Shown: positions 3,062 to 41,582 of the stretch, piece by piece
How positions within the stretch are numbered: position 1 is the stretch's first letter
Layout: every line of letters begins with the position of its first letter
From: a virus
Length of the DNA: 45,378 nt
IMG/VR virus record: IMGVR_UViG_3300007540_000023
Location: 1-45,378 of that record
Direction: 5' to 3' (one strand)
Made by a program: the position numbers and the translations under genes
Notes under the pieces: model-generated
What the model saw: the letters and a program-made list of their open reading frames with translations, nothing else
Databases searched by the model: none
Told to the model about the DNA's origin: nothing

Positions 3062-3319
3062 ATGAATACAATTATGAAGATTATAAGAAAGATATCAGTA
3101 GGCAGAGACTACCCAAACGGGTCGATACATTATCAGGTTGGAAAGGAGATAAACCTACTAGGTCAGATGTACACAATATCCTCAATCATGCTAGAGTACG
3201 TAGAGGGAGATAAGCTGGGGTACAACATATACATAGAGAGCCAAGAGGTTGGTACGATGCTATGGAAGACTATAATAGACATGCCTATACATATAGAGAA
3301 TGATATAACCTTCATGTAA
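3062..3319 (+). CDS. Conserved-looking small hypothetical protein
   Basis: 85 aa, function not recognised. It contains KISVGRDYPNGSIHYQVGKE near the N terminus and ends MPIHIENDITFM; it is mostly beta-prone, with no membrane segment and no cysteine. The ATG at 3062 lies just downstream of the promoter box; an alternative ATG is at 3074. A longer frame from TTG 3038 would overlap the promoter box and is disfavoured. The stop overlaps the start of the GroES-like gene (TAATG), so the two are probably translationally coupled. It is the first gene of the packaging operon, so a role near co-chaperonin or terminase is possible but unproven. Confidence 0.6.
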   Translation: MNTIMKIIRKISVGRDYPNGSIHYQVGKEINLLGQMYTISSIMLEYVEGDKLGYNIYIESQEVGTMLWKTIIDMPIHIENDITFM

Positions 3320-3885
3320 TGACTATAAACTATATAATAGTAGAGGTTGATGATGCATACAAGAACGAGATAGATGGGTTGGTGGTCAACTCGACTATTG
3401 AAAGTGTGGCTCACATCAACAGGGTAGCTAAGGTTGTAGAAGCCCCAAGCTTCACTATCATAGAGAAGGGTGATGAGGTCGTGGTACACCATAACATGTT
3501 TAGGCTTAGAAACGGCTTAAGGGGTAAGAGGGTGTCATCAAACTACCACCTAGAGGGTAACAGGTACTTCATACCACTAACAGAGGTGTTTATGTACAGA
3601 CGTGGTGGTGAGTGGCAGGCTATCAGACCCTTTGTGTTTGTTGAACCTATCAAGCAGGAGGATGAAGTAATAGGTAGGGTAATAATCAACAGTGATAATG
3701 CAAAGAGTCACAATGGGATGGTTAAGCTACAGGGTATTATAAAGTACCCTAACGATGAGTTAACAAGAAGAGGTGTAAGCGTTGGTGATAAGGTGGTGTT
3801 CTCTTATTGGAGTGAGTACGAGTTTAACATAGACGGTGAGACCTTATATAAGATGTCAACAAACGATATCTTGGCTGTAATATGA
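3319..3885 (+). CDS. Tandem-domain GroES-like co-chaperonin
   Basis: 188 aa. Residues 101-188 align by eye along the whole GroES fold: IRPFVFVEPI at the first strand, a loop with the hydrophobic stretch GRVII (119-123) where GroES has its GroEL-binding GGIVL/GGIII mobile loop, then GVSVGDKVVF (152-161) matching VKVGDxVxF, and YKMSTNDILAVI matching the GroES terminus LIMSESDILAIV. Residues 1-100 look like a second, more diverged barrel: YIIVEV, GLVV at a loop position, EKGDEVVV, and YFIPLTEVFMY. The layout recalls two-domain plant Cpn20. It would cap the phage GroEL encoded at 39772-41349. It overlaps the terminase gene by ATGA. The second domain is well supported; the first is inferred. Confidence 0.72.
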   Translation: MTINYIIVEVDDAYKNEIDGLVVNSTIESVAHINRVAKVVEAPSFTIIEKGDEVVVHHNMFRLRNGLRGKRVSSNYHLEGNRYFIPLTEVFMYRRGGEWQAIRPFVFVEPIKQEDEVIGRVIINSDNAKSHNGMVKLQGIIKYPNDELTRRGVSVGDKVVFSYWSEYEFNIDGETLYKMSTNDILAVI

Positions 3886-13343: not shown

Positions 13344-14216
13344 ATGCCAGTAAATATAATACCATCAGCAGACTACTACGAGAACCAAGATTTACATGGT
13401 AGCTATCAGTATATAACACTAGAGGATATAGTAAACAACTACATGATGTCTACAGACGATGATGATTTCGCATCCAACGTCCCTAGGCACAAGGTGCTAT
13501 TCCAAGCGAGGAGAGCCTTTAGAGAACTCTACTTCGACTCAATACAGGAGGTTAAGGTAATGTCCTTAGAGCTTAGTGACCAGCTCACTGTGACGCTTCC
13601 ACCTGACTTTGTAAACTACGTAAGGATATCGTGGTTAGGTGATGACAACCTACTACGTCCAATGGCTTCTAACGGCTACACCAATATTGCTAGGGACTAC
13701 CTACAGGGTGACAGCTACGAGATACTGTTTGATGATGACGGCTGTGCACTACAGGATGATGTACAGGGCTTAGCAGAATTAGCTGCAGGTGGTGAGGGTG
13801 GTACAGCAAACTCTTACACATTCTGTGGGGATGCCTTTAACCCTAATAAGAATATGGCTAACGTATACTCCAATGGGAGCTACGTGGTGGATAAGAATAA
13901 TGGTTTAATAAAGTTTGGGTCAGAGGTGTTCGGTAGGACGGTTGTCTTGGAGTACATATCAGACGGTCTGTACACAGGCTGTGAGGGCTCAGCAGAGGTA
14001 GATTTAAAGATACATAAGTTCGCAGAGGACTCAGTATACAACTGGATGTACTGGAAGCTAATAGAGAGGCGTAAGAACGTCCCTGCTAACGCTAAGGTTT
14101 TAGCTAGGAAGGATTGGTTCAACAGTAGAAGGATTTGTAAAAGAAGGATGAACACCATAAGACCTGCTGAATTAAGACAGGTGTTTAAGGGTTCTAGTAG
14201 ATGGTTCAAGGCTTAA
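13344..14216 (+). CDS. Head-tail connector / tail adaptor protein
   Basis: 290 aa. The N-terminal helical part includes PRHKVLFQARRAFRELYFD, followed by a beta segment LTVTLPPDFVNYVRISWLG, resembling podovirus adaptor (T7 gp11-like) proteins in which helices dock on the portal. The Asp/Gly-rich middle varies. The C terminus is strongly basic (DWFNSRRICKRRMN). With the preceding gene it forms the neck module upstream of the tail nozzle. Function is inferred from position and general pattern. Confidence 0.55.
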   Translation: MPVNIIPSADYYENQDLHGSYQYITLEDIVNNYMMSTDDDDFASNVPRHKVLFQARRAFRELYFDSIQEVKVMSLELSDQLTVTLPPDFVNYVRISWLGDDNLLRPMASNGYTNIARDYLQGDSYEILFDDDGCALQDDVQGLAELAAGGEGGTANSYTFCGDAFNPNKNMANVYSNGSYVVDKNNGLIKFGSEVFGRTVVLEYISDGLYTGCEGSAEVDLKIHKFAEDSVYNWMYWKLIERRKNVPANAKVLARKDWFNSRRICKRRMNTIRPAELRQVFKGSSRWFKA

Positions 14217-14239: not shown

Positions 14240-14485
14240 ATGAAGATGTTAAACAGCAACATATGTTGCAAAGACTTAGATGAGGTAGTAGAGAGGGTAG
14301 GTAGAGTAATGATACCTACTAAGGATAAGAAGTACAGAAGCTTACAGGTAGTAGTGTCTGGTGATGATAATGTTAAGGTAGGTGATGTTATATACGTCCC
14401 TATAAGCTCTGGAGTCGACGTGAAGGTTGAGAAGGAGTTATACACCATTGTAAACGCTAGAGAAATTATACTAATATTAGACTAA
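14240..14485 (+). CDS. Second, single-domain GroES-like protein
   Basis: 81 aa. From residue 20 the sequence tracks bacterial GroES. VGRVMIPTKDKK (20-31) matches the mobile-loop region IGGIIIPxxxKEK of Bacteroidota GroES, VVVS (37-40) matches the strand before the roof loop, NVKVGDVIYV (44-53) matches the VKVGDxVxY signature, and VDVKVEKELYTIV...IILILD matches the final strands. The roof loop is shortened, which explains 81 rather than ~97 residues. It lies between connector and tail-nozzle genes, away from both GroEL and the tandem GroES-like gene. It could be a dedicated co-chaperonin for a tail substrate or a barrel recruited as a structural part. The similarity is by eye and unverified. 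Confidence 0.5.
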   Translation: MKMLNSNICCKDLDEVVERVGRVMIPTKDKKYRSLQVVVSGDDNVKVGDVIYVPISSGVDVKVEKELYTIVNAREIILILD

Positions 14486-14489
14486 CAAT

Positions 14490-17400
14490 ATGAAGTTACA
14501 GAACACTTTTGTTCAGAGCAAGATGAACACGGATATTGACGAGAGGCTTCTGCCTAAGGGTCAGTATCCTGATGCAGTAAATATAAGGGTGGCTAATACA
14601 GAGGGTTCTGACGTAGGAGCTATAGAGAACGTTAAGGGTAACGAGAAGTTAACAGACCTTGGCTTAACCAATGCAGAGACTATAGGGTCGTTTGCTGATG
14701 GTGCAGCACAGAGGGTGTACTGGTTTGTAGCGTCTGACACTAGAGATTTAGTGGTGGAGTATGATACTCAGACTACTGACATTAACATACTACTAGACTC
14801 CACCAACCCAGACGGTGTATTAAACTTTAGTAAGGACTACCTTATAACAGGGGTGGTAAAGATAATAAATGGTGACTCGGATAGGGATTTACTTATATGG
14901 ACTGATGACTTAAACCCACCGAGGGTTATAAACATTAAGAGGGCTAAGGATGTATATACAGCAGACAGCTTTGATGAGCAGGACATATCACTAATAAACA
15001 GAGCACCTAGATATGCACCAGATGTAACACTGACCTACACAGCTTCAACACAAGAGAATGAGTTAGTTAATAAGTTCTACAGCTTTGCATACAGGTATAA
15101 GCACTTAGATGGTGGTAAATCACCTTTATCTTCATTTACTAACTACCAGTTTGCACCTTCTAAGTTCGATATGGACTACCAGACTATGGAGAACAGGGGT
15201 ATGTCTAATAGCTTTAACGCTGTCAAGATTGACTTCAACACAGGAGACTACAAGGTAACAGACGTAGAGTTGGTTTACAAGGAGTCTGGTTCTAACACTG
15301 TCTTCCTTATAGAGAGTTTTAACAAGGCTGAGGAGTTATGGGCAGATGATGCAACAGAGAGCTTCACATTCTCCAACAACAAATCTCTTGTGGCACTACC
15401 ACAGGATGAGTTATTCAGAACGTTTGATAACATACCTAAGAAGGCTAAGGCTTTAGAGTTAATGGGCTCAAGGATAGCCTTCGGTAACTATGTTGAGCAG
15501 TACGACCTTACAGATATAAGTGGAGACCCTGTAGCTATGGACTACTCACTATCACTTAGTAGTATAGATACAACAGGAGAGGTTTTGGATGTAACTGTAG
15601 GGACTAACACCTACACGGGTGACCTATTAACCATAGACCTTAACGGTTATGTACTAAGTAGGGATAATAAGATAACCATAACAGTTAGACTTGATGAGGA
15701 GACTTACGCTGGTTTTTATGAAGACTCGTTTGACTTTATTCTTAACACATCATATACAGATGCCGCAGAGCTAGCTGCAGACCCTGACTTTATATACTTT
15801 GTAGAGACACTAATAACAGCAGGTTTTGAAGCAGATAGTGATATTGAGTCTCCCCCAGATAATATATTAAGCATGCCTGCGATAACTGGTTTTACCATAC
15901 AGTCATCCACTGCTACAACAATAAGTATAAAAGCACCTATAGTGCCATATGAGGTAGACTTAGAGCCCTTAGGTTCAGACCCTACAGATATAGTGTACGC
16001 CAACTTCCAGTTTAATGTAGGTAGTGAAGCCTACTATAAAGAGATAGCTATAGACTCCTCTGTAAAGACTAATAGGAGCTATGAGGTAGGTGTAATATAC
16101 ATTGACGCAGATGGTAGGACTACTACAGTTCTAACAGACCCAGATAATACAATATACGTAGACCAAGAGTTCTCTACTTTCAAGAATAAGATTATAGTTG
16201 ATATAAACCACAAGCCACCAGAATGGGCTGACAGGTATAAGCTTGTGTTTAAACAGAATAAAGGCAAGTACCAGACTATCTACACAAACCTGTTCTACGA
16301 GGATGGGCTTTATAGGTGGATTAAGCTAGATGGTGCTAATGTAGGTAAGGTAGCTAAGGGTGACTCACTTATTGTTAAATCGGATTTAGGTGGTGCGGTA
16401 GAGGACATTATAAAGGTAAGGGTGCTAGATATAGTTAGCCAGCCTAGGGATTTCATAAAAGGAGATGACCCAGATGGTACACCAGAAACTGACCCTACTA
16501 ATATACTAGACGAAGAGTCTGGTCTATATATGAAGGTTAAGCCTGTAGGTTTTGATATGACCTATGATGAGTCTACTATTCAGACATTCTCAGGTAGTTC
16601 ACACCTAAGGTATCCTACAAAGACATACACAAGCCCAATCTTTGGAGATAACCAACTTAGCGGGGGTTCTAGGGTCAAGATAAAGATTAGCTTTAAGGCT
16701 AGGGGTTCTATATCCTACTTCGCTGAGTATGAGAATACTTTTACGGTTTTTGCGGATTATACCAATGACCTAGATTTAACCATAAATGGAACTAAAAGTG
16801 CAGTACAGAAATGGTTTGAGGCTGAGGTTATAGACTTAGGTTCGTTTGGTGAGAACTTCACTAGAGACCCACTAAACCCAAACGGTATCATAGGTAGTTA
16901 TTATACAGGAGACCCATTAGAGCCAATACTTCCTTGGCATGATGCGGGTACATATGATAATGGTTATGGCTTTACTAAAACAGAGGATGGTGATTTAAGA
17001 AACGGAGAGAAGTTCTACGTATGGGCTCACAGAAAGGGTACGACATCTAGAAACATAACCACACACGTAGAGCTTGAGATACTCAACACAGATGGTACAA
17101 ACATATTTGAGACTATACCAGAGGATAAGGGTACAGAGCTTTACTACGAGACAGCTGAGACTTATGACATAGTAGATGGTACATACCATCAAGGTAACCT
17201 ACATCAGGGCACTACACAAAGTCAGAGTCTTACAGAAGATACAGCTATAATAGAGTCCGACTTCTTTAACTGCTACGTACAGGGTAACGGTGCTGAGTCA
17301 TACAGATACTTAGACGCATTAAACGTGGGTACAGATGACGACGGAAACCAATTAAGAGCTACCTACTTAGATATAGACCTTAGACCTACAACAACAAGCG

Positions 17401-18662
17401 AGGAGAGGTACAGAGAGGTACGTAGGTACGCTGATATAACATACAGTGAACCCTACAATGAGAATACTAATTTAAACGGCTTAGGGGTCTTTAATTTAGC
17501 TAAGGCTAACTATAAGGAGGATATAGAGAAGAAGTACGGTTTCATACAGAAGCTATACGCTAGGGATACTAACCTACTTGTTATGCAGGAGGATAAGATT
17601 TCTAAGGTACTCTTCGGTAAGAATATAATAACCAATGCGGATGGTACATCAAACGTATCAACCATAGAGGACGTATTAGGACAGCAGGTAATGTACACTG
17701 GTGAGTACGGTATAAGTAGAAACCCAGAGAGCTTTGCCTTTGACTCCGCTAACGTTTACTTCATAGACTCCAAGAGGGGCTGTGTATGTAGATTAGGAGC
17801 ACAGGGTATCACTGAGATTTCTATGGCGGGTATGAGGACATTCTTTAAGGATGAGTTTAAGGACGTTATAGATATTAAGAAGATAGGGGCATATGACCCC
17901 TACCTAGACCAGTACGTTGTTAACTCAAGTGCGGTTAAGACACTAACGTTTGATGAGAAGGCTAAGGGGTGGACATCTTTCCACTCCTACTTCCCAGAGG
18001 ATATGTTAGGGATGAATAACAAGTTCTTCTCATTTAAGGATGGGGAGCTATACCAACACCACTCAGATAATGTGGATAGGAATACATACTACGGAGAGTT
18101 CTCACCATCTAAGATAGGGGTAATGGTTAATGACCACCCGTCTGAGATAAAGGAGCTACAGGCTATAAGCCTAGAGGGTAACGATACGTGGGAGACCTTA
18201 ATAAAGGCTTACATATCTAACTCTGACGACTACATGGAGAGCTCTATACACACTGTAGAGTTTGTTAAGAAGGAGGGCATATGGTTTGCCTACGCTAGAA
18301 GGAATGAGTCTGATGTAGCATTCGACTCTAAGGCTACCTATGGTATAGGGACAGTTGACGCAGTAGTAGGGTTAGACGTTACATTTAACGGAGGCTCTAT
18401 CTCTTTAACTGTAGGAGACCAAATCATAAGAGGTTCAGACCTGTTAGTTATAGGTACAGTTACAGCTATAGTAGATAGTACTATAACACTAGATGCTGTA
18501 GGAGACCTAGCGGTGGGTGAGTATATACTAGGTGCTAAGGACTCTAGGATAGAGGGAGGAAATCTAAGGGGGTATACCCTAAGGATGGACTTGACTAACA
18601 GCTCTACTGAGAAGGTGGAGCTATTCGCAGTCAACGCTGAGGTGATGAAGAGCTACAGTTAA
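14490..18662 (+). CDS. Tail tube / nozzle protein (T7 gp12-like role)
   Basis: 1390 aa. The N terminus MKLQNTFVQSKMNTDIDERL, with LPKGQYPDAVNIRV and GSDVGAIENVKGN, is the hallmark opening of the large tail-tube/nozzle proteins of Bacteroidota podophages. Short beta repeats, likely propeller blades (ADGAAQRVYWFV, YSFAYRYKHLDGG), fill the first 400 residues. A long insert of sandwich-like domains follows (about 400-960). The C-terminal part returns to blade-like motifs (SFAFDSANVYFIDSKRGCVCRLG; YDPYLDQYVV). The position after the connectors and before internal virion proteins fits the distal tail tube. It starts 5 nt after the small GroES-like gene, suggesting coupled expression. Confidence 0.72.
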   Translation: MKLQNTFVQSKMNTDIDERLLPKGQYPDAVNIRVANTEGSDVGAIENVKGNEKLTDLGLTNAETIGSFADGAAQRVYWFVASDTRDLVVEYDTQTTDINILLDSTNPDGVLNFSKDYLITGVVKIINGDSDRDLLIWTDDLNPPRVINIKRAKDVYTADSFDEQDISLINRAPRYAPDVTLTYTASTQENELVNKFYSFAYRYKHLDGGKSPLSSFTNYQFAPSKFDMDYQTMENRGMSNSFNAVKIDFNTGDYKVTDVELVYKESGSNTVFLIESFNKAEELWADDATESFTFSNNKSLVALPQDELFRTFDNIPKKAKALELMGSRIAFGNYVEQYDLTDISGDPVAMDYSLSLSSIDTTGEVLDVTVGTNTYTGDLLTIDLNGYVLSRDNKITITVRLDEETYAGFYEDSFDFILNTSYTDAAELAADPDFIYFVETLITAGFEADSDIESPPDNILSMPAITGFTIQSSTATTISIKAPIVPYEVDLEPLGSDPTDIVYANFQFNVGSEAYYKEIAIDSSVKTNRSYEVGVIYIDADGRTTTVLTDPDNTIYVDQEFSTFKNKIIVDINHKPPEWADRYKLVFKQNKGKYQTIYTNLFYEDGLYRWIKLDGANVGKVAKGDSLIVKSDLGGAVEDIIKVRVLDIVSQPRDFIKGDDPDGTPETDPTNILDEESGLYMKVKPVGFDMTYDESTIQTFSGSSHLRYPTKTYTSPIFGDNQLSGGSRVKIKISFKARGSISYFAEYENTFTVFADYTNDLDLTINGTKSAVQKWFEAEVIDLGSFGENFTRDPLNPNGIIGSYYTGDPLEPILPWHDAGTYDNGYGFTKTEDGDLRNGEKFYVWAHRKGTTSRNITTHVELEILNTDGTNIFETIPEDKGTELYYETAETYDIVDGTYHQGNLHQGTTQSQSLTEDTAIIESDFFNCYVQGNGAESYRYLDALNVGTDDDGNQLRATYLDIDLRPTTTSEERYREVRRYADITYSEPYNENTNLNGLGVFNLAKANYKEDIEKKYGFIQKLYARDTNLLVMQEDKISKVLFGKNIITNADGTSNVSTIEDVLGQQVMYTGEYGISRNPESFAFDSANVYFIDSKRGCVCRLGAQGITEISMAGMRTFFKDEFKDVIDIKKIGAYDPYLDQYVVNSSAVKTLTFDEKAKGWTSFHSYFPEDMLGMNNKFFSFKDGELYQHHSDNVDRNTYYGEFSPSKIGVMVNDHPSEIKELQAISLEGNDTWETLIKAYISNSDDYMESSIHTVEFVKKEGIWFAYARRNESDVAFDSKATYGIGTVDAVVGLDVTFNGGSISLTVGDQIIRGSDLLVIGTVTAIVDSTITLDAVGDLAVGEYILGAKDSRIEGGNLRGYTLRMDLTNSSTEKVELFAVNAEVMKSYS

Positions 18663-21318: not shown

Positions 21319-24300
21319 ATGGACGAATTAACATCTGCATTAAACGACTACGTAGCTACAGTTAATAGTGGTAAATACGGAGACGACATAGAGACATTAA
21401 TGTCAAAATTTCCAGAGCTTCAAGGCTATGAGCAGGGGGCTTTAAATGACTATGTTGCTACTTCAAACAGCAACAAGTATGATGAGGAGACTCTAAAGTC
21501 TAAGTTTCCAGAGTTCTTTGGGGATAATGAACAAGTAACACCCGAAGTACCAAAGGAAGTAGTAGCCGAAGCGAGTGGGGACTCAGCATCTCCTTCGGCA
21601 GGTACAGACTCTTCATTGGATTCCAGTGTAGATGAGGGTTTAAAAGCTAAGGACGAGGCAGCTAGGAGAATACAAAAGAGGTATGAAGAAGCTGGTGTAA
21701 CTGAGTATGAGATAAATGAGGAGGATATTAACCGTGAGGTTGAAGCTACTAACAAGGTTAAGCATATTACAGCAAGTAATAAACCAGCTAAAAAGTTAGA
21801 GCACTGGTCAAAGGCACACTCAGGTTTTATAAAAGAGATTAACAACCCTGAGTTATATAAGCGTAAGAAAGAGTTAGAGGCAGAGATAGCGTCGAGACCT
21901 ATAATGGCTAACAACACTGATATACAGTCTAAGTTAGATGAGGTCAACGCAACTATAGAGAGGATAGACGCACCTAAGCAGTCTGAGAGCAGAAAGGCTG
22001 ATATAGCAATAAAAGGATTAGAAGAAAAACAGTTTGAGCTAGAGCAAGAGGCTATAGAGGCTGCAAAGAGTAGCGACCTTTCTTATGAAGAGATTCTTAC
22101 AGGGGAGGGTAACTACCAAGACATACTTAAGCAGAAGTCTAAGCTAAAGGATTCTAAGACGTTAGAGAACGCTGTTTTAGATAAGATTAAGGAAGACACT
22201 AACTCTTCCTTTGGAACTAAAGACCTTTTTACTAACGCTGCTAGGTACTTTGGTTACTCTGATAAGTCTGAGCAGACTATAAAGCTTTCTGAGGAGGTTT
22301 CTGAGGAAATACTATTAAGTCTTACAGAGAATCAAAAGGAGAAGATGGCTAGGGGTTTTACATCCCTTGACGAGAAGGAGGCTATAATAGGGCAAGCTAA
22401 GGGTAAGGTTATTAACAGAACCACAGAAAAGTTTAAGCAAAGGGAGAGGGATATAATTTCTAGTGACTTAGAAGACACTGAGAAGGTTAATAAGATAAAA
22501 GAAAATACAGAGGAGTATAATGGGTTTCTAGGTCAGATTGGGTATGATGTGGCAGGTGACATACTTAACAATCAGTTTAAAAAGACCGACGCTAGAGATA
22601 ACTTTAATGAGTCTGTAGTTAAGAAGGGGTTCTTAGGAGATGTTGCTACACCATTCCTTACATTCTTTGATGAAGGTGCTAAGTTAGCACTTAAAGGGAC
22701 TGCAGGTTGGGGTTCTGCGTTTGCGTCTGTAGGTGATATATTTATGTCTGACGACCACTACAGCAGCTACGACGCCTTTGGAGATGTTGTGGGACAGTTC
22801 ACAGACCAAGCGTTCTTACCAAACACTAAGGATGAGAGGTTTAGTTTAAGGAAAGAGGATGGCTCACTAAGGGTCACTCCTTTATCAGTATTAAATACTG
22901 TATCTAGAAGTGCAGGTTTTACAGTTGGTATAGCTCTTATGGCTAGGAGAGGTGGTGCTGGAAACATAGAGAGACAGTTGGGTCAGTTCATAAACCCTAC
23001 AAAGAGTGTTAAGTTTACTAATGATTTAAAATTAATGGAGTCGGCTTATGGTTTGACTTTATCAGACAACTATAGAGAGGCTAAGAGGTTGGGATTAGAC
23101 GGTCTATCCGCAGCAGCTTACACTAATACCTTATCTATGATAGAGGGTATTACAGAGCCTATAATGCGTGACACCAAGTTCTTTGAGACTACTGGTGGTA
23201 CTGCAATATTGAAACAATTTCAAGGAGACCTAAAAAGTGCTACTAATAGAAAACTAATTACTGAGTCTGTAAAAAGGATGAGTAAGAATGTTAAGAACGA
23301 GTTTATTGAGGAGGATATTGTACTAGCCGTACAAGACCTTACTAAGTTTATGCTTGTTGCAGAGCATGAAAACTCCGAGTTCTGGGATATTAGAAATCAA
23401 TTAGAGTTAGGTATAGTTACTACAGGTATGTCTGGTATTATGGGTACTATTTCAATGAGAAATAACATTAAGGCTGATGATATTAATATATACAAAGCCA
23501 TATCTAAGGATATTAATGGTGTAGTTGATAACCTTTTAAAAGCTAAGGAGGGTGCATTGACCCCAGAGGCTGCAGAGGGGTTTACTAAGACTATCGAGTG
23601 GGCTAACAACATGAACAAGGCTATTAAACTAGCTCCTGCAAATGTTACTGGTGAACAGATAGACCTTTTAATGGAGAAGGCTAACTTGGTTACAGAAATG
23701 AAGTCGTTAGACCCAGCATTCCACGCACAGTATAAGGAGAAGATTGAGGCTATTGATGCTAAGATAAACCCTTTAAATAAAAAGACTGAAGAGGGTGTGG
23801 CTAAAGCTGAGGCAGATATTGCTAAAAGGAAAGAGGAAGCCGCTAAGAAGAAAGCTGCCGCAGATAAGAAGGCTGAAACCAAAGAGCCAAAGGTGGAAGA
23901 AGTTACACCTGAAGATAAAAAACCAGAAGAAGGAGTAGAAGATGTTGATAAAAAAAGTAAAGATAAAATATTAGATGATATAACATCTTCTTTTAAAACA
24001 GAAGGAGATAAGGAATTTACAAAAGACCAAAGTGAAGCATTTCTAAGTGCAGCCAAAGCAGCAGGTATTAAAGTGCTTGAAACTTCTGATGGAAGAAAGT
24101 TTATTGACCCTTCAAAAAAGGAGGCTATAGCTTTATACAACTATTTAGGTTTAGGAAACAACGCAAAGAAAAAGGACACTAAGCCTACCAAGACTGTAGA
24201 GCAGATAGAGGTTGACAGAACTGCTGAGCTAGAGGCACAGAAGGATAAACTTGATGAGACCTACGGTGTAGATAGTAAGCAGACTGTAGGTGAGCAAATC

Positions 24301-27300
24301 AACGCTAAGTATGATAAGCTTGTAGCGGACAGAAAAAGAGAAGACCTTGTACCATATAAGGCTGAGGAGGTGTCAGAGACTACAGATGCTAAGCAGTTTG
24401 CAGAGGCACAGGCTAAGGCTATATCTAATAGGACTGAGGACTCTATGCAGGTAGACCCTGTAACTGAGGAGGATATACAGAAGATACTAGAAGAGGGTGG
24501 TAAGATATTTATGACATCAGATGGCAAGTCTGGTGCATACGTTACTAAGGATGGTTATATGGGAGGTCTATTTAAAGACCCAAGTGCTGGACGTTCACAG
24601 GCAGCGAAGGTGCTACAGCAGGCTAGGATTAAAGCTGGTGGTAGATTCTTTGACGCATACGGTGAGAACGCTAAGACTGGTGAGGGTACTACCTTAGAGG
24701 ACATCTACATTAAGAATGGGTTTAGACCTGTTGTTAGGATGTCATTTAATGAGGAGTACGCTAAGAAGGGTTGGGAGAAGACTAACCTATCTAAGAGACC
24801 AGATAACGTATTCTTTGTATACGACCCAGCATATAAGGCAGAGAAGGGAGAGGGTGTACGTAACGAGGACTACGACGCTGCTATGGAGATTGCTAAGAAC
24901 TTCAAGACAGAGACTAGTAAACAAGAGGCTGCTAAAGACATAGACGCTGACTTAGACGCATTCATGGGTACACCTGAGGTTGAGTCTGCAAAGGCTAAAG
25001 AATCTAGACGTGCAAATGTAAAGGTACTAGCTGACAGAGCTAAGAAGTCTTTAAGTAGGATAGCCCCTAACGTTAGTATTAAGATATACAACACAACCGC
25101 TGAGTTTGAGGCAGCCACTGGTGATAAGAACACAGCAGGGAAGTGGAGTCCAAATAAAGGTAAGGGTGGTACTATAAGTATAAACCTTGACTACGCCACT
25201 GGGAGGACTGTAGCACACGAAACAGTTCACGCTGTACTTGGTACTATGATAAAGTCAGATAAAGCCTTAGAGAGGCTTACAGACAAGTTCTTGGGCGTGT
25301 TAGCTAAGAATGTAGATGGTGATGTAAAGGTTGAGTTAGATAACTTTATAAACCTGTACGCTGATAAGCCAGAGGTAATGAGTGAGGAGTTCGCTGCAGA
25401 GTTGGGTGGTATGTTGGCAGACAACTACACCAAGCTTAGTAACAAGGCACAGGGTATTGTTAAGCAGTGGTTAGATACTATAGCTAAGAAGATAGGGTTG
25501 AAGGAGTTTACAGACTCTGAGATTATAGACCTACTAAACACAATAGCAGGTAAGACGGCTAAGGGTGAGGTTATTACTGAAGCTGATTTAGAAATACTAG
25601 CAGACTTTGATGGAGAGTCTGGGAGTGAGATGAGACCAAGCTCTAAGAGTCAAATTACAGCTAAGTCTATAAAAGAGTCTATTGTTAGTGGAGTGAACGC
25701 AGCATTTCCTTACAACTTTGCCAACTATAAGAGAGGTGTAACCCTTCCGAAACAGCAAAGCATGTCAGATGTTTTAAAGGTTTCTGGTGGTTACGCTGTT
25801 TTTATAAACTCTGATGGTACAAAAGTAGGTGTTAGAAATAATGGTGAAGGTTTAGATGGTGGGTGGCAGTATACTTATCTTGATGATAATATAAAAGATA
25901 ATATAGGGTTTGCAGCTACTAGTGGAACTCATGTAAAAAGCTTACATAAAATAACTAAAGAGTTAACAGCGAAAAGAGATGCTGAGTCGCCAGAACATAA
26001 AGGGAAGCCTGTGGCTGTATTTGTTACAATACAACACGCACCTACTATGCTTGGTGAGTGGTATGCAGCTGAGTTCTTTATGGAGGGTATTGATAAGGCA
26101 TTGTCCGAGGATATATATAAAGGAGGTGTAGATGCTTTTAGGAAAGATTTAAGAGAGGCAGTAGCTTCAGCTTACCCTAAAAAGAGTGCCTCTACAGTAG
26201 CTGGTATGACAAAGGAAAACCGTTCCAAGTATAACGCTACTCAAAAACAGGTAGAGACTTTAATTGATTTAGTAAACTCTAACAAATTCAATACACATAA
26301 AGGTAGAATAGGGATATCTAAAATATTCGCTAGTAAGGACTTTACTTTTGGTTTTAGGGTAAACGTACTAAAAACAGTAATGCCTAAGAATAAACTTACT
26401 AAAGCTAATAAGAAGAATATTAATATATTACAAGCATTATTAGATGTAGAGGGAGGTCGAAAGGATTTCTATCGTGAGCACATGGATGAAGCTTTGTTAG
26501 AAAAACTAGAGGCTTCAAACTTTGATGAGAAAGCTATAGGAGGTTTAACAATGGGAGGTTATTATACAAACCCTTACAAAACTGTTGAGGAGGTATATGA
26601 GAATAGGGTAAATGGTATAGAGCATGACCAATTTAATGAGTCTTTTAGTTCTAATGGTGAAACATTTAGATTAGATAATGCCCATGATGTAAACATTCTT
26701 AACCCTCATATGGGTTATCCTACACAACTGGGGTATGATTTATATAACAAAGATAATGGTACTGATGTAACTAAGAAGAATTATACAATACAAGATAGAC
26801 ACGATGTAAGTACTTATATAAAAGAGAAGTATGGAGAATCTTTACCTGCACTACAAAAGGGTGGTAAAAGGAGACCTACACTTACACCACCTTTCACATC
26901 TCTTGGAGGTTCTATGTACACGGCATCTGATTCTGATTTAGATTTAGAATCTGAGCCACAAAGAAAAGAGAAGAGTCAAAGAACTGACAAGGCATCAGAA
27001 AAGTTAGTCAGCCTCTTCGACAGGGATAATGTACCATTAACTATACCTGAGGCAAAGGAGATGGTTAATGAGGTGTTAGATTGGGCTGATTGGTATGATG
27101 GTTTATCTGGTTACGTAAATAAAGTATTTGGAGAGTATGGTTCGGATGTCTTATCTATCCTACCCCTAGCATCTATGGGTAATGGTAGTGCAGGTACTGT
27201 GACTATGGCTATAAATAATGTTGAAAAGATATATAAAGGTGAACGTCCTTCTGGGCTAGCTGAGTACTATAACTTTGTAACAGACTTCTTAGAGGGTAAG

Positions 27301-30300
27301 GGTATTAAGTCGGATAAGATGTACAACTTCTTTAAGGCTTTATTAGGAGACCCTAATGCTGTCGCTGTTGATATGCACGTATACTCTATAATAAAATGGA
27401 AGGACTCTAATAAAAAGCAGGTTAACCCAGCTAATAAGAAGGAGTTTGCTAAGGCTAAAGAGTTTGTAAATACCTTAGCTAAAGAATTAGGAATGCAGCC
27501 AAGAGAAGTACAAGCTTCTTTATGGGCTTTAAATATATTAAGAACAGGAGGAAAACCAGATAGTTATGAACAATACATTGAAAAACACATCAAAGAAAAG
27601 AACCTCTACCAAAGGGTCGAGAGCTGGAGAGAGCAAGGCTATAAACCATTTTCTGAAGTTCGTGAAGCAAAAGAAAGAGAGCAGATAGGGGAAAGAAAAG
27701 AGAAGAGTCAAAAGGTAGGTATAGGTTACTTTAAGAGTAAGCCTGCCGCTAATGTACGTTCTGGCAACAAGGCGTTCAGAGATGCAGTAGAGGCTAAGAG
27801 AGAGGCTAAGAGGCTTGAAAGGGAGGCTAATATTAAGAGGATTGAGAAGCTACAGAAGGAGATAGAAGGAAGTCCAGCTAAATCCGTAGAGGAGGTGGTA
27901 GAGTTCTCAAGAGACAAGGGCTACGAAGACACTGTTATAAAGGATGCGTTACTAAAGCGTGGTTTCTCTAAGGAACAGATAGAGACAGCACTAGCTACAA
28001 TAATACCTACCGCTATAGTTAAGGGTGCAGCTAAGGCTGTAAGGGACAACAAGAAGTCCAACCTAAAGGCTGATGTAGACGCTGTAGGTATAGAGCACGT
28101 TAAGAGCACTAAGTGGTACAGAGGTCTAACAGTTAAACAGAAGGACGCCTTAAACAAGAAGGGTATATCCAACATACTAGCTGACAAGGAGCTTGCACTT
28201 AGAAAGGGTTCACAGCCTACTAAGGCGGGTAAGAAGTTTAGAGACACGGTTAAGGATGTTACAGGTCAGACTGATACATCTGCTGAGGTTACTATGACTA
28301 AGGCTAAGCTACTTAAGGAGCAGATTAAGACCCTAGTAAGGGGAGCTAAGATGGGTGCTAAGGGTCTACAGGACTTAAAGGCATCATTCATCAAGGAGAT
28401 ATCTATAGAGCTAAAGTCCCTTACCAAGAGTAAGATTATGACACTTACTGAGGCTAGGAAGGTATTAGCTGCAGTAAACCAGCTTAACTTTAAGAACTAC
28501 GACAAGGTATCTGAGCTGGTAGATAAGGTTATAGCGGAGATAGAGAACAAGGGTGTAAGAAGAGCTATAAAGCAGGTTAAGACTAGACTAAGAAAGGGAG
28601 CTAAGTCACCTAAGAACCCAGTTAACATGAGAGAGCTTGCTAAGGAGGCTGTCAAGGTAAACGAGGTGTACCTAACACCAGCAGAGAGGGTTAAGTACTC
28701 CGACCTGCTGACAGAGATACAGGCTTCGTTCAAGCTTGCTACAAGTAAGACCTACAGGATGGCTAACGAGGCTGATATGCTTAAAGCCCTAGAGGTCTTA
28801 AACCAAAAGGCTGAGGCTACTAGGTTAAAGGAGTTGGCTACTAAGCTAGGTCTTGACGGGACAGGATTAACTAACTCTCAGCTAGTAGAGCTTGTTAACT
28901 CTGTAGACGTTGACGAGTACTTAGGTACACTAAAGAAGGAGAAGGCTAGAGAGGCTAGGATAGCCCTTGAGAAGCAGGCAGAGTATGCTAGGATAGCTTT
29001 AAACGATGTCGATGGTGATACACTAACACAGCAGGAGAAAAAGGACGTTAGAACGCTTAAGGAGGCTAATCTAGAGCTACTAACATCTACAGACATAAGA
29101 GACCTTATAAAGATAGTTGATAACATAGTTACTAACCAGACATTCGCATCGTCAGGTAATCTAGCATCTAAGATTAGAAGCTACAACGCATCTGAGATAG
29201 CCACTAAGGAATTCAACAAGGGTAACACTAAGATGATTGATAAGAGCGTTATAACAGACTTAAAGTCTCTAGCACTTGTATTCAAATCAGTGTTCCAGAG
29301 TACTAGAGCAGCTGCTTTATTTGACAAGATATCTGGTCTTACTAACCTAGGTATAGCGTACACTAAGCACAAGAAGGCTATGAACGCACTAGCTAAGTCA
29401 TACGATGAGCTATTCGCTAAGCTACTTAAGAACCATAAGGGGTTAAACAAACCAGAGAGCACTATGTTCAGAGGTCTAGTTGCACAGCTTATACAGGGTA
29501 CAACATCAGAAGATTTTGATATCAACAAGTCTAGGCTTGAAGACCACATAGAGCGTAGTAAAGAGTCACAAAAGAAGAGCACTAGGTTAGGAGTAGAGGT
29601 GTTAGAGGAGCAGTATGAAGCTCTTAAGGGATTAAAATCTCAGGAGGAGGTTATAGAGTACGCCAAGGGATTAAAGGACGGTAACTGGGAGCTTGTAGAG
29701 TTCTGGATGAACCACTTTGATGCTAATAAGGATGCGTTGAAGTACAACACAGAGGTGGTACACGGTAAGTCATTCGAGGAGGTTGTTGGTAACTACCTAC
29801 CTATAAAACTAAAGGCTGACGGTACAGCTACTGAGGATGTAGACAACCAAGCGTTCTTTGATAGAAATGGACTACCTGCTACAAACCCATCTGTTACAAC
29901 TATATCTAGGACTAAGACTAAGAAGCTACCACCTAACAGGGTGTTAGATTTAGACTTTGACTCGGTGATGTTTAACAAGGCAGCTGGTGTGTCTATTGAT
30001 ATAGAGACCTCAGCAGCTTATAAGGATGTGTACAACTTCTTTAACTCACCTAACATGAAGAAGATGTTTGGTAAGGAGACTATAGGGGTATTCCAGAAGA
30101 AGCTTACAGAGATGAGAAAGGTTCAGCTAGGTATAGCTAGTATGGACGTAAATAAGGATGAGACCATTAAGGCGGTTAACAAGGTTGAGAGAATCTGGAA
30201 GACTATAGCTACAACTATTGGTCTAGGTTCTATTACCCAGTACCCTAAGCAGTATATATCTGTAGCGTTTAATGCTATGGCTCACCTAGGAAGTGATAGT

Positions 30301-31542
30301 GGTCTTATGTTCAAGGCTATGTTCACAGATAAATCTAAGATACCTCTACTAGATATGGTGTCTGTAAGCCTAAGGGGTGAGACTCAGGCTGGTACTATAA
30401 CAGGTGGTACTAGAATATCTGAGGCTGAGAAGAAGGCTACAAAGGCTGTGGTTGGTAGGGTTGTACAGGAGACTGGTCTAGCTGCAGAGAAGGTTAGAGA
30501 GGTGCTGTTCTATTCATTAAGGAAGGGTGATGTAAACGTAGCTAAGTCTTCTTGGATAGCGTTCTACCAGAAGTACTTGAAGGATAACAACATCACTGAT
30601 GTAGATATGGCTACAGAGCATGAGAGAATGGATGAGGACATTAGACAGGAGGCTATAGCTTACGCTGAGCTTAAGGTTGAGGAGACTCAGATTTCCTCTG
30701 ATGAGTCAAGAGGGTCAGAGTTCTACCAGTCTAAGGAGACCAGTAGAGCTATCCTAAGGGGTATATTTCTACCGTACCAGTCCTTCAATATAAACTCTAA
30801 GATGAGGATGCTTACGGACATTAGAATTATTGGTGATAGGAATGCTAACGCACAGCATAGAAGGGATGCTGGAGCTTCTCTACTAGGTACAGCAGCTGAG
30901 ATGATAACATTTCAGACCATGAAGTACTACGTACTTTCTCCAATTATAGGTTTAGGTAAGGCTGCTTTAATGTCTCTATTTGGATTAGATGAACCAGAAG
31001 AGGAGGAGTGGGATGCAGAACACAAGAGTAAACAGTTTAAGTTTAAGCAGTGGTATTCAGCGTTGGCTAAGGATTTAAACCCGCTAGCTATTGGGTCGTT
31101 TTCAGAGGATATGGTTATAGAGACCTTAAACCTTATGCAGTACTTTGCTGAGGCTAAAGATGGGGAGGCTTATGTAGACTACATTAAACGCCTACGTGAT
31201 GAGGGTGGTGGTCAGATGTTCTACAGATACAAGGACAAGGAAGAGCGTGGTAAAGGCTTCGGAGCTTCACTACTAGGTGGTGGTGGTCTGTACAGCATAC
31301 CTTACTCCCAGTTTAGTGAGACCTTAGACGCCTACGAGCTTATGATGGATAATACTAGAAGAGATGATTGGGGTAACTTATTTGAGTATAACTTTACTGA
31401 GAACCAGCAGTTGATGTTAAAGTTTGCATTCGCTGCAGAGTTTATATCACTGTTTGGTCTAGGTGAGGCAGACTCCAGAAGGCTACTTAGAAACCTGCGT
31501 AAGGACGCTCAGAAGAATACAGAGAAGAAGAAGATTAATTAA
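21319..31542 (+). CDS. Giant polyvalent virion/ejection protein with metalloprotease motif
   Basis: 3407 aa, the largest gene. The domains, read by eye, come in this order. Two tandem ~30-residue repeats (LNDYVAT...SKFPE) occupy about 5-68. Helical regions with TLSMIEGITEPIMRDTKFFE follow. A GNAT-like segment lies at about 1055-1190 (IYIKNGFRPVVRMSFN). A zinc-metalloprotease motif HETVH sits at about 1300, with a likely third ligand in EEFAAELGGML (~1357). A unique beta-rich module spans about 1440-1880. A DUF7178-like module (DWADWYDG... AVAVDMHVYSIIKW) spans about 1895-2120. Long coiled coils follow, and the C-terminal region has FLPYQSFNINSKMRM and a hydrophobic stretch near 3200. It closes the ejection-protein cluster, so it is probably packaged and injected, with a role like T7 gp16. 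No RNA polymerase DxDGD catalytic context was found. Confidence 0.7.
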   Translation: MDELTSALNDYVATVNSGKYGDDIETLMSKFPELQGYEQGALNDYVATSNSNKYDEETLKSKFPEFFGDNEQVTPEVPKEVVAEASGDSASPSAGTDSSLDSSVDEGLKAKDEAARRIQKRYEEAGVTEYEINEEDINREVEATNKVKHITASNKPAKKLEHWSKAHSGFIKEINNPELYKRKKELEAEIASRPIMANNTDIQSKLDEVNATIERIDAPKQSESRKADIAIKGLEEKQFELEQEAIEAAKSSDLSYEEILTGEGNYQDILKQKSKLKDSKTLENAVLDKIKEDTNSSFGTKDLFTNAARYFGYSDKSEQTIKLSEEVSEEILLSLTENQKEKMARGFTSLDEKEAIIGQAKGKVINRTTEKFKQRERDIISSDLEDTEKVNKIKENTEEYNGFLGQIGYDVAGDILNNQFKKTDARDNFNESVVKKGFLGDVATPFLTFFDEGAKLALKGTAGWGSAFASVGDIFMSDDHYSSYDAFGDVVGQFTDQAFLPNTKDERFSLRKEDGSLRVTPLSVLNTVSRSAGFTVGIALMARRGGAGNIERQLGQFINPTKSVKFTNDLKLMESAYGLTLSDNYREAKRLGLDGLSAAAYTNTLSMIEGITEPIMRDTKFFETTGGTAILKQFQGDLKSATNRKLITESVKRMSKNVKNEFIEEDIVLAVQDLTKFMLVAEHENSEFWDIRNQLELGIVTTGMSGIMGTISMRNNIKADDINIYKAISKDINGVVDNLLKAKEGALTPEAAEGFTKTIEWANNMNKAIKLAPANVTGEQIDLLMEKANLVTEMKSLDPAFHAQYKEKIEAIDAKINPLNKKTEEGVAKAEADIAKRKEEAAKKKAAADKKAETKEPKVEEVTPEDKKPEEGVEDVDKKSKDKILDDITSSFKTEGDKEFTKDQSEAFLSAAKAAGIKVLETSDGRKFIDPSKKEAIALYNYLGLGNNAKKKDTKPTKTVEQIEVDRTAELEAQKDKLDETYGVDSKQTVGEQINAKYDKLVADRKREDLVPYKAEEVSETTDAKQFAEAQAKAISNRTEDSMQVDPVTEEDIQKILEEGGKIFMTSDGKSGAYVTKDGYMGGLFKDPSAGRSQAAKVLQQARIKAGGRFFDAYGENAKTGEGTTLEDIYIKNGFRPVVRMSFNEEYAKKGWEKTNLSKRPDNVFFVYDPAYKAEKGEGVRNEDYDAAMEIAKNFKTETSKQEAAKDIDADLDAFMGTPEVESAKAKESRRANVKVLADRAKKSLSRIAPNVSIKIYNTTAEFEAATGDKNTAGKWSPNKGKGGTISINLDYATGRTVAHETVHAVLGTMIKSDKALERLTDKFLGVLAKNVDGDVKVELDNFINLYADKPEVMSEEFAAELGGMLADNYTKLSNKAQGIVKQWLDTIAKKIGLKEFTDSEIIDLLNTIAGKTAKGEVITEADLEILADFDGESGSEMRPSSKSQITAKSIKESIVSGVNAAFPYNFANYKRGVTLPKQQSMSDVLKVSGGYAVFINSDGTKVGVRNNGEGLDGGWQYTYLDDNIKDNIGFAATSGTHVKSLHKITKELTAKRDAESPEHKGKPVAVFVTIQHAPTMLGEWYAAEFFMEGIDKALSEDIYKGGVDAFRKDLREAVASAYPKKSASTVAGMTKENRSKYNATQKQVETLIDLVNSNKFNTHKGRIGISKIFASKDFTFGFRVNVLKTVMPKNKLTKANKKNINILQALLDVEGGRKDFYREHMDEALLEKLEASNFDEKAIGGLTMGGYYTNPYKTVEEVYENRVNGIEHDQFNESFSSNGETFRLDNAHDVNILNPHMGYPTQLGYDLYNKDNGTDVTKKNYTIQDRHDVSTYIKEKYGESLPALQKGGKRRPTLTPPFTSLGGSMYTASDSDLDLESEPQRKEKSQRTDKASEKLVSLFDRDNVPLTIPEAKEMVNEVLDWADWYDGLSGYVNKVFGEYGSDVLSILPLASMGNGSAGTVTMAINNVEKIYKGERPSGLAEYYNFVTDFLEGKGIKSDKMYNFFKALLGDPNAVAVDMHVYSIIKWKDSNKKQVNPANKKEFAKAKEFVNTLAKELGMQPREVQASLWALNILRTGGKPDSYEQYIEKHIKEKNLYQRVESWREQGYKPFSEVREAKEREQIGERKEKSQKVGIGYFKSKPAANVRSGNKAFRDAVEAKREAKRLEREANIKRIEKLQKEIEGSPAKSVEEVVEFSRDKGYEDTVIKDALLKRGFSKEQIETALATIIPTAIVKGAAKAVRDNKKSNLKADVDAVGIEHVKSTKWYRGLTVKQKDALNKKGISNILADKELALRKGSQPTKAGKKFRDTVKDVTGQTDTSAEVTMTKAKLLKEQIKTLVRGAKMGAKGLQDLKASFIKEISIELKSLTKSKIMTLTEARKVLAAVNQLNFKNYDKVSELVDKVIAEIENKGVRRAIKQVKTRLRKGAKSPKNPVNMRELAKEAVKVNEVYLTPAERVKYSDLLTEIQASFKLATSKTYRMANEADMLKALEVLNQKAEATRLKELATKLGLDGTGLTNSQLVELVNSVDVDEYLGTLKKEKAREARIALEKQAEYARIALNDVDGDTLTQQEKKDVRTLKEANLELLTSTDIRDLIKIVDNIVTNQTFASSGNLASKIRSYNASEIATKEFNKGNTKMIDKSVITDLKSLALVFKSVFQSTRAAALFDKISGLTNLGIAYTKHKKAMNALAKSYDELFAKLLKNHKGLNKPESTMFRGLVAQLIQGTTSEDFDINKSRLEDHIERSKESQKKSTRLGVEVLEEQYEALKGLKSQEEVIEYAKGLKDGNWELVEFWMNHFDANKDALKYNTEVVHGKSFEEVVGNYLPIKLKADGTATEDVDNQAFFDRNGLPATNPSVTTISRTKTKKLPPNRVLDLDFDSVMFNKAAGVSIDIETSAAYKDVYNFFNSPNMKKMFGKETIGVFQKKLTEMRKVQLGIASMDVNKDETIKAVNKVERIWKTIATTIGLGSITQYPKQYISVAFNAMAHLGSDSGLMFKAMFTDKSKIPLLDMVSVSLRGETQAGTITGGTRISEAEKKATKAVVGRVVQETGLAAEKVREVLFYSLRKGDVNVAKSSWIAFYQKYLKDNNITDVDMATEHERMDEDIRQEAIAYAELKVEETQISSDESRGSEFYQSKETSRAILRGIFLPYQSFNINSKMRMLTDIRIIGDRNANAQHRRDAGASLLGTAAEMITFQTMKYYVLSPIIGLGKAALMSLFGLDEPEEEEWDAEHKSKQFKFKQWYSALAKDLNPLAIGSFSEDMVIETLNLMQYFAEAKDGEAYVDYIKRLRDEGGGQMFYRYKDKEERGKGFGASLLGGGGLYSIPYSQFSETLDAYELMMDNTRRDDWGNLFEYNFTENQQLMLKFAFAAEFISLFGLGEADSRRLLRNLRKDAQKNTEKKKIN
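26960..26980 (+). repeat. 21-bp direct repeat, copy 1 (inside giant gene)
   Basis: Begins AAAGAAAAGAGAAGAGTCAA and encodes part of the linker RKEKSQ. Identical to bases 27692-27712; the offset of 732 bp is a multiple of three, so the repeats bracket an in-frame ~244-residue module. Confidence 0.85.
27692..27712 (+). repeat. 21-bp direct repeat, copy 2 (inside giant gene)
   Basis: Perfect second copy of the repeat at 26960-26980, again encoding RKEKSQ in the same frame. A shorter relative (AAGAGTCAAA, protein KSQ) lies near 25646 at the start of another domain. Confidence 0.85.
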
Positions 31543-39771: not shown

Positions 39772-41349
39772 CTACTTATCTAGTGCAACTATAGTACACT
39801 CAGTCATCAGTACCAGTGAGGCTACTGACGCAGCGTTCTCTAACGCCACCCTAGTAACCTTTGTAGGGTCAATTATACCAGACTCTACCATATCTACAAG
39901 CTTATTGGTTGTAACGTCATATCCAGTACCTATAGGGCTAGTGCTAAGGTCTGTAATTACAGTGTCAAAGCTTACACCTGCATTCTGTAGGATTACCTTA
40001 AAGGGCTTTACCAGTGCATTTATTACTATTAGATACCCACTCCTTATGTCCTTATTAGTTGATGTAAGGGAGTGTAAGGGCGTTGCACAGTTGTGTAATG
40101 CTATACCACCCCCAGATACAATTCCTTCCTCTAAGGCTGCTCTAGTAGCCCCTAGTGCGTCATCAATCCTGTCCTTCTTCTCCTTCATCTCAATCTCAGA
40201 GTTAGCACCTACGTACAGTACCGCTACACCACCTGATATTAAAGCCAGCCTCTGCTTAATCTCCTCTATCTCGTAAGGACTGTTTGAGGTCTCAATGTTA
40301 GACCTTAGATTAGCCTTAAGCTCTTCTATGTCTGCAACCTCTCCGTGACCGCCAATGATGATAGTGTCATCCTTATCGACAACAATCCTATCGCAGCATC
40401 CGAACATCTCAAAGGTAAACTCCTCAAAGGTAAGCCCTGCTGCCTCAGTCACTACAGTACCACCAGTAATAACCGCTAGGTCTTCCATCGTGTAGTTCCT
40501 CTTCTCTCCTAGGAACGGTGCTTTGATAGCTGCAACCTTCCATCCACCTCTAATCTTGTTGATTACCAGTGTAGCTACAGACTCACCTGATAGGTCACCT
40601 GCTATTATAAAGATAGGCTTGCTCTCAGGGATACACTCCAGTACCTTTATGATGTCAGTAACAGCCTCTATCTTAGCCGTGGTTAGTAGTATCAGAGGGT
40701 TGTCTAACTCTACAGTACTCTTAGCCTCGTTGTTGATGAAGCCTGATGAGGTGAACCCTCTAGAGAACTTCAAGCCCTCAACTACATCTACATAGGTATC
40801 GACACTCTTAGACTCCTCAACAGTAATAGTACCCTCCTTGGTTACCCTGCTGATAGCGTCCTCAACTATGTTACCTATCTCAGCATCTCCATTGGCTGAT
40901 ATAGTAGCGACCTGTCTGGTCTGCTCTGTACCGTTAACAGGCTTAGACATCAACGCTAGCTCCTTAACCACTAAGGCTACGGCTTCATCTATACCCCTCT
41001 TTAAATCTACTGGGTTAGAACCCTTGTCTAGGTACGCCATACCCTCAGCAATCATCTCCTGTGCTAGCACTGTAGCGGTTGTTGTACCATCTCCAGTGTC
41101 CTTAACAGTCTTAGCTGAGACTCCTTTAATCATCTGAGCTCCCATATTAGCTAGGCGGTCATCCAACCACACCTCCTTGGCTACAGAGTAACCATCCTTA
41201 GTTACGTGAGGAAGTGCAGGTGCAGGCTTCTCTATAACTACATTTCTACCCATAGCTCCCATAGTACAGGCTACCGAGTCTGCTACTACGTTTATGCCAC
41301 GCATAAGACCCTTCCGAGCCTCCTGCGAGAAGTTTATATCCTTGCTCAT
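39772..41349 (-). CDS. groEL: Chaperonin GroEL (phage-encoded)
   Basis: 525 aa; full-length Hsp60. Equatorial: GMRN-type segment TMGAMGRNVV (E. coli TLGPKGRNVV, so Pro33 is Ala), TKDGYSV, ATP loop DTGDGTTTATVLAQ. Apical: EGLKFSRGFTSSGF, where E. coli has RGYLSPYF, so one aromatic substrate/GroES-contact residue (Tyr203) is Gly. Intermediate/equatorial: GGVAVLYVG, EMKEKKDRIDDALGATRAA with the catalytic Asp398 equivalent, and EEGIVSGGG. The GGM-repeat tail is absent; it ends MTECTIVALDK. It folds proteins in the host cytoplasm with a GroES lid, probably one of the GroES-like proteins at 3319-3885 and 14240-14485. Start overlaps the preceding stop (TAATG). Confidence 0.95.
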   Translation of the reverse strand: MSKDINFSQEARKGLMRGINVVADSVACTMGAMGRNVVIEKPAPALPHVTKDGYSVAKEVWLDDRLANMGAQMIKGVSAKTVKDTGDGTTTATVLAQEMIAEGMAYLDKGSNPVDLKRGIDEAVALVVKELALMSKPVNGTEQTRQVATISANGDAEIGNIVEDAISRVTKEGTITVEESKSVDTYVDVVEGLKFSRGFTSSGFINNEAKSTVELDNPLILLTTAKIEAVTDIIKVLECIPESKPIFIIAGDLSGESVATLVINKIRGGWKVAAIKAPFLGEKRNYTMEDLAVITGGTVVTEAAGLTFEEFTFEMFGCCDRIVVDKDDTIIIGGHGEVADIEELKANLRSNIETSNSPYEIEEIKQRLALISGGVAVLYVGANSEIEMKEKKDRIDDALGATRAALEEGIVSGGGIALHNCATPLHSLTSTNKDIRSGYLIVINALVKPFKVILQNAGVSFDTVITDLSTSPIGTGYDVTTNKLVDMVESGIIDPTKVTRVALENAASVASLVLMTECTIVALDK

Positions 41350-41582
41350 TATATTCTAGCTCTATTAAGGTTCAACGCTCTAAATCTCTTAAACATAGAC
41401 CTCCTGTCCTTTCGGTTCATGAAGTTGTTTAGGTACGGGTTATTCTTTGTTATAGGGTTAACCAAGACCCCCTCACTGTTGATAATCTTAGTGTAGGGGA
41501 TGTTCTTAGGTATCTGACCTATTGTAGGCTCTGGTGTTACAACCTCTGGGTCTACTACTGTAATCTCTTTACTGTCTTTCAT
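41349..41582 (-). CDS. 77-aa hypothetical protein between RNR and GroEL
   Basis: 77 aa with two parts. The N-terminal half is acidic and Pro/Val-rich, probably disordered (VVDPEVVTPEPTIGQIPKNI). The C-terminal half is basic, NNPYLNNFMNRKDRRSMFKRF, and may be an RNA/DNA- or protein-binding helix. Its stop codon overlaps the GroEL start (TAATG), so GroEL translation may be coupled to it. It does not resemble GroES. Function unknown. Confidence 0.55.
   Translation of the reverse strand: MKDSKEITVVDPEVVTPEPTIGQIPKNIPYTKIINSEGVLVNPITKNNPYLNNFMNRKDRRSMFKRFRALNLNRARI

Follow-up and report, generated by a model that had tools for sequence, protein, structure and literature searches.

The 81-aa protein encoded at 14240..14485 on the + strand of the incomplete phage contig analyzed here (the window, meaning the whole stretch of 45,378 nt) most probably serves as the stand-alone co-chaperonin (Cpn10/GroES) of the phage, an ordinary lid for its folding machine and not a new tail part. 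Judged by its sequence, the gene encodes a genuine chaperonin lid of GroES type in shortened form, an assignment to which Pfam Cpn10, PHROG 3188, profile matches, AlphaFold2 and Foldseek all contribute. Its neighbors are both virion genes. Upstream lies the gene for a 290-aa connector or ring-1-like virion protein (13344..14216, +; PHROG 13977, head and packaging, virion structural), and downstream that for a 1390-aa tail muzzle (nozzle) protein (14490..18662, +; Pfam crAss_MUZ and crAss_MUZ_C, PHROG 14478). An initial annotation, made from the letters alone, had placed the open reading frame (ORF) between these two genes, where it is indeed found, and had put it 5 nt before the muzzle gene; it does lie directly upstream, but the spacing from its stop to the muzzle ATG (14490) is 4 nt, and 23 nt separate its start from the connector stop (14216).

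Sequence Homology to GroES

The protein scores 25.8 bits (E = 1.1e-5) against Pfam Cpn10 (PF00166), passing the curated cut-off of 21.1 bits, with residues 2-79 aligned to profile positions 3-92/93, and it is also matched by PHROG 3188, “co-chaperonin GroES” (E = 8e-6). As a guard against circularity, two independent profiles were used, one of groEL-adjacent phage GroES alone and one of the 81-aa family alone. The former, free of members of the protein's own family, gave 30.5 bits, compared with 0.9 bits for the reversed sequence and 12.1 for the best of 2000 shuffles; the similarity to GroES exceeds chance. The latter gave an end-to-end match to GroES chains of the PDB (E = 2e-6), interrupted by a single 11-residue gap at the roof hairpin. 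In profile-profile comparison the family lies nearest to groEL-adjacent phage GroES (80 columns, probability 97.2, E = 3e-11) and close to Bacteroidota (host) GroES (79 columns, probability 96.4, 28% identity), and is distant from the two domains of the tandem co-chaperonin described below (46.8 and 5.7).

In the Bacteroidota alignment, VGRVMIPTKDKK pairs with the GroES loop ...GIIIPDTAKEK and NVKVGD with TVKVGD, after which the final strands are in register. The initial annotation had drawn these same pairings and proposed a profile-profile search, and every one of them was reproduced within a full-length match. The similarity extends beyond the VKVGD motif, because the host alignment spans 79 columns and the PDB match runs end to end. 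Against the NCBIfam housekeeping GroES models, the protein reached 27 bits with the best model, short of its cut-off of 99, and it is therefore not classed as a housekeeping GroES. T4 gp31 was absent among the sequence matches of the protein and its family. Matches to TIGR02922 and DUF2375 were dropped, as their scores fell under the respective cut-offs.

Predicted Fold, Mobile Loop, and Roof

The AlphaFold2 model of the protein has a pLDDT of 85.6, from an alignment of 18 sequences. That alignment contained other phage GroES (rows from annotated phage records were left out), and the predicted fold is consequently not independent of the sequence evidence. It is the GroES beta-barrel that the initial annotation had supposed: ranks 1-31 of a Foldseek search against the PDB are all co-chaperonins, ranging from H. 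thermophilus GroES to T4 gp31 (1g31), with TM-scores on the query of about 0.6-0.78 to PDB GroES chains. The best E-value, 2e-4, is modest, in line with the short length of the protein. Among viral structure models, the top named matches are likewise co-chaperonins.

The weak regions of the model are the last residue block and residues 11-30 (14270..14329, +), where pLDDT falls to 57-67 and most other residues exceed 90. Such low values are expected of a GroES mobile loop, and the segment aligns with that loop. Within it, the hydrophobic tripeptide VMI (residues 23-25; 14306..14314, +) is aligned with GIIIP of Bacteroidota GroES and would be the equivalent of the GroES tripeptide that contacts GroEL. 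Homologues carry VIV, IIV, VII, or FII here, and the tripeptide is hydrophobic in every member except L017 (LYK). The two most distant family members are weak in loop or barrel, L017 on account of this tripeptide and L016 through a shortened C-terminal region.

The roof hairpin of GroES is absent, its site being reduced to DDN (residues 42-44; 14363..14371, +), which faces the 11-residue gap relative to PDB GroES and also a gap relative to host GroES. T4 gp31 likewise has no roof loops (PMC6318259; PMC9598537), which gives it a wider opening (PMC6318259). Since gp31 lacks the roof too, the hairpin does not define Cpn10. In one homologous locus, L151 (5001-5300), 20 lysine-rich residues are inserted at precisely the point where the roof is lacking, and they may constitute a new roof.

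The Chaperonin Set of the Phage

The phage also encodes a GroEL of 525 aa (39772..41349, -), which matches the NCBIfam equivalog TIGR02348 at 606 bits (cut-off 582.1). Aligned to PDB GroEL, it retains DGTTT, the DALxATRAA block, the ATP site and the GroES-facing helices, the residues that face GroES being those established for E. coli GroEL. By its sequence, this GroEL looks functional and GroES-dependent. Upstream of the terminase lies a tandem co-chaperonin of 188 aa with two GroES-like domains (3319..3885, +), matched over its whole length by PHROG 13932 and, in its second half, by Pfam Cpn10 above the cut-off. Its AlphaFold2 model (pLDDT 77.6) finds Chlamydomonas Cpn20 (7ekq_R) as the best Foldseek match, across both domains (201 columns, E = 3e-6). 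Profile comparison of the first domain by itself gives a weak match (probability 27), but the domain is backed by the fold and by PHROG 13932. The initial annotation's count of one GroEL and three GroES-like barrels in one phage is thus borne out, two of the barrels being those of the tandem protein. In many relatives the second tandem domain has a short loop and a weak hydrophobic tripeptide, and the two domains may be non-equivalent.

A 77-aa ORF overlapping the groEL start (41349..41582, -) has no Cpn10 match and is not a groES; in a related contig, G003, a 158-aa version occupies the same place. The groEL region is adjoined by a B12-dependent-type ribonucleotide reductase (41604-43514). 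Elsewhere, the window encodes a 3407-aa protein (21319-31542) with DUF7178 as its sole Pfam match and an HExxH-like stretch (AHETVHAVLG).

Conservation and Genomic Position

Searching annotated phage records with the 81-aa protein itself gave no credible match, and relatives were therefore reached via the connector gene. The resulting sample comprised 80 viral loci found through that gene together with annotated phages, and a profile scan contributed three further contigs with a gene of the 81-aa family. Across the sample, connector and muzzle genes are spaced -9 to 18 nt apart; one set of loci alone departs from this, with an intergenic distance of about 250-310 nt that accommodates the 81-aa gene. 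Homologues in this slot show 35-98% identity and dN/dS between family members is 0.08-0.44; the gene is conserved and under purifying selection. In the connector-gene tree, all 12 carriers (the window and 11 contigs) fall on one side of a branch with support 98/89, as sister to phi38:1 and L018, and the family is also grouped in the GroES tree (support 100/98). The position between connector and muzzle has a single origin; since all carriers form one clade, it counts as one evolutionary event and not as several independent ones. At the remaining 78 loci in that connector tree, no groES was found ahead of the homologous muzzle genes.

Related records were searched with PF00166, PF00118 and the two family profiles. 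All 16 groEL-bearing records outside the clade have the tandem gene and one stand-alone groES, the latter 5-1846 nt from groEL (within 220 nt in 14 of them); indeed, fragments aside, every relative searched has a single tandem and a single stand-alone gene. Inside the clade the picture is different. In the window and G003, both of which include groEL, the single stand-alone groES detected precedes the muzzle gene and is separated from groEL by 25-29 kb, and two fragments without groEL (G005 and G021) each have one stand-alone groES, again ahead of the muzzle gene. In four further groEL loci 90-100% identical to that of the window, and in G003, no groES was found in the available groEL flanks; counting the window, six groEL loci of the clade show none beside them. 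Every contig of the clade is a fragment, the window included, and a further groES could lie outside. The 81-aa gene is probably not an extra co-chaperonin but the one stand-alone copy of the phage, unusually placed, because the relatives searched carry the same set of GroEL, tandem and stand-alone co-chaperonin and position alone differs. Phage phi46:3 (KC821622; L094 and L097) has a stand-alone and a tandem co-chaperonin with no GroEL match and may therefore use host GroEL.

Evolutionary Origin

How the gene came to its present place can be read in two ways. Either the groEL-adjacent copy was relocated, or a groES was acquired independently, with a host or a different phage as conceivable donors, and rendered that copy dispensable. 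The second reading has the GroES tree on its side, which does not place the clade beside the groEL-adjacent GroES of sister phages, as well as the ...IP... loop of the protein, which resembles that of Bacteroidota GroES. However, the same tree is weakly resolved, and groEL-adjacent phage GroES is nearest to the family by profile. Tree tests rejected neither the joining of the clade with sister-phage GroES (AU p = 0.07) nor its joining with host GroES (p = 0.20). We regard independent acquisition as quite possible while leaning mildly against it; it would alter the history of the gene, not its function. Because the tree does not pair the clade with the sister-phage copies, a simple move is one candidate history. 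Relocation and replacement of an older copy both fit the data, and “moved” would accordingly describe position and not proven descent. When bacterial and archaeal genomes were scanned with the profile of the family, no relative turned up, and hence no recent host donor was identified. Origin by duplication of a tandem domain was set aside, as the match to the tandem domains is much weaker than that to stand-alone phage GroES.

Proposed Function

In the preferred reading, seven GroES domains of this type would form a ring, presumably a heptamer, whose mobile loops would bind the apical domains of phage GroEL, and perhaps also host GroEL, in the ATP state. The ring would then shut phage proteins inside the folding chamber, its clients being general rather than muzzle-specific, and lacking the roof hairpin it would form an open-topped lid like that of T4 gp31. 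The gene sits in the rightward structural operon between connector and muzzle, which would suggest late expression; located there and away from groEL, it is probably co-expressed with the virion proteins.

The initial annotation had offered two other readings, both suggested by the neighborhood. One was a co-chaperonin that serves the 1390-aa tail protein specifically; the two would then be produced together. The 4-nt spacing to the muzzle ATG, similarly short throughout the clade, and the large size of the muzzle protein are in keeping with such a role, but homologous muzzle genes at other loci lack an adjacent groES (the connector-muzzle gap there is -9 to 18 nt), and those phages keep their groES at groEL. 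Moreover, the usual clients of the GroEL chamber are far smaller than 1390 aa, and a chain of this size would be oversized for it. As phages with homologous muzzles manage without an adjacent groES, we consider a muzzle-dedicated lid improbable. The other reading took the protein for a barrel of GroES fold that was recruited into the tail; a connector component was considered as well, as the position between two virion protein genes might imply. We think this highly improbable, given that the other muzzle phages have no counterpart between connector and muzzle genes and that in crAss001 the tail barrel is 12-fold and the muzzle 6-fold (PMC10172136), whereas GroES rings are sevenfold. The conservation of the mobile-loop tripeptide in all members but one also argues against a tail part, as does the fact that the clade shows no other stand-alone groES.

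A further possibility is a variant of the preferred co-chaperonin reading and does not exclude it, namely a mixed lid in which three tandem subunits and one 81-aa subunit together would provide seven GroES domains, an arrangement proposed for chloroplast Cpn20/Cpn10, with the 81-aa subunit contributing the odd domain. According to a review (PMC5780408), the single- and double-domain co-chaperonins of chloroplasts combine into seven-domain rings, Chlamydomonas CPN20/23 with a Cpn10-type subunit giving functional seven-domain hetero-oligomers. The pairing of one tandem with one stand-alone gene in the relatives searched, the Cpn20 match across both domains of the tandem model, and the retention of both genes in phi46:3 without any GroEL match are all consistent with this arrangement. 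Yet the first domain of the tandem family has diverged from GroES, and many of the second domains have short loops, so that the tandem protein could have another role. On balance, a mixed lid strikes us as possible, though less likely than not. More speculative still is the broader proposal that these Bacteroidota phages might build a chloroplast-like hetero-oligomeric lid on their own GroEL, with the structural-operon gene of the present clade tying lid composition to virion assembly.

Relation to Known Systems

GroEL together with single- and double-domain co-chaperonins is a conserved set in this group of Bacteroidota phages, in which phi38:1, Calle_1 and the elemoviruses are isolates. It offers a small, testable system in which to ask whether chloroplast-like mixed lids arose independently and which virion proteins require a private folding machine. 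With groES lying apart from groEL, nature has also provided an experiment on how tight their co-expression must be. GroEL has previously been reported in phi38:1-like phages (PMC5332604). The literature searched, which did not extend to the original Cellulophaga proteomics study, contained no account of their co-chaperonin set, for which deposited annotations were used.

The likeness to chloroplast Cpn10/Cpn20 lies in the presence of single- and double-domain co-chaperonins beside a group I chaperonin, and in the match of the tandem model to Cpn20; the chloroplast system differs in that its chaperonin is itself hetero-oligomeric, and a mixed ring in the phage would be hypothetical. Bacteroidota GroES shares the full-length profile match at 28% identity and the GIIIP-KEK-like loop, but is about 91 aa long, against 81 aa for the phage protein with its shortened roof segment and a gene outside a groESL operon. 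T4 gp31 and RB49 CocO are, like the 81-aa protein, phage-encoded co-chaperonins, and gp31 shares the lack of roof loops. The match to gp31 is structural only (Foldseek 1g31, E = 0.054, 13% identity), and gp31, a 12-kDa protein with a 22-residue loop, partners host GroEL, whereas the present phage encodes its own. The GroES of Callevirus/Elemovirus-like Bacteroidota phages (elemoF, MT497071; phi38:1, NC_021796) is only about 15-29% identical to the 81-aa protein and is encoded near groEL rather than in the structural operon, but it has the same size, a short roof and one copy per genome, and it too occurs together with a GroEL and a tandem co-chaperonin encoded by the phage.
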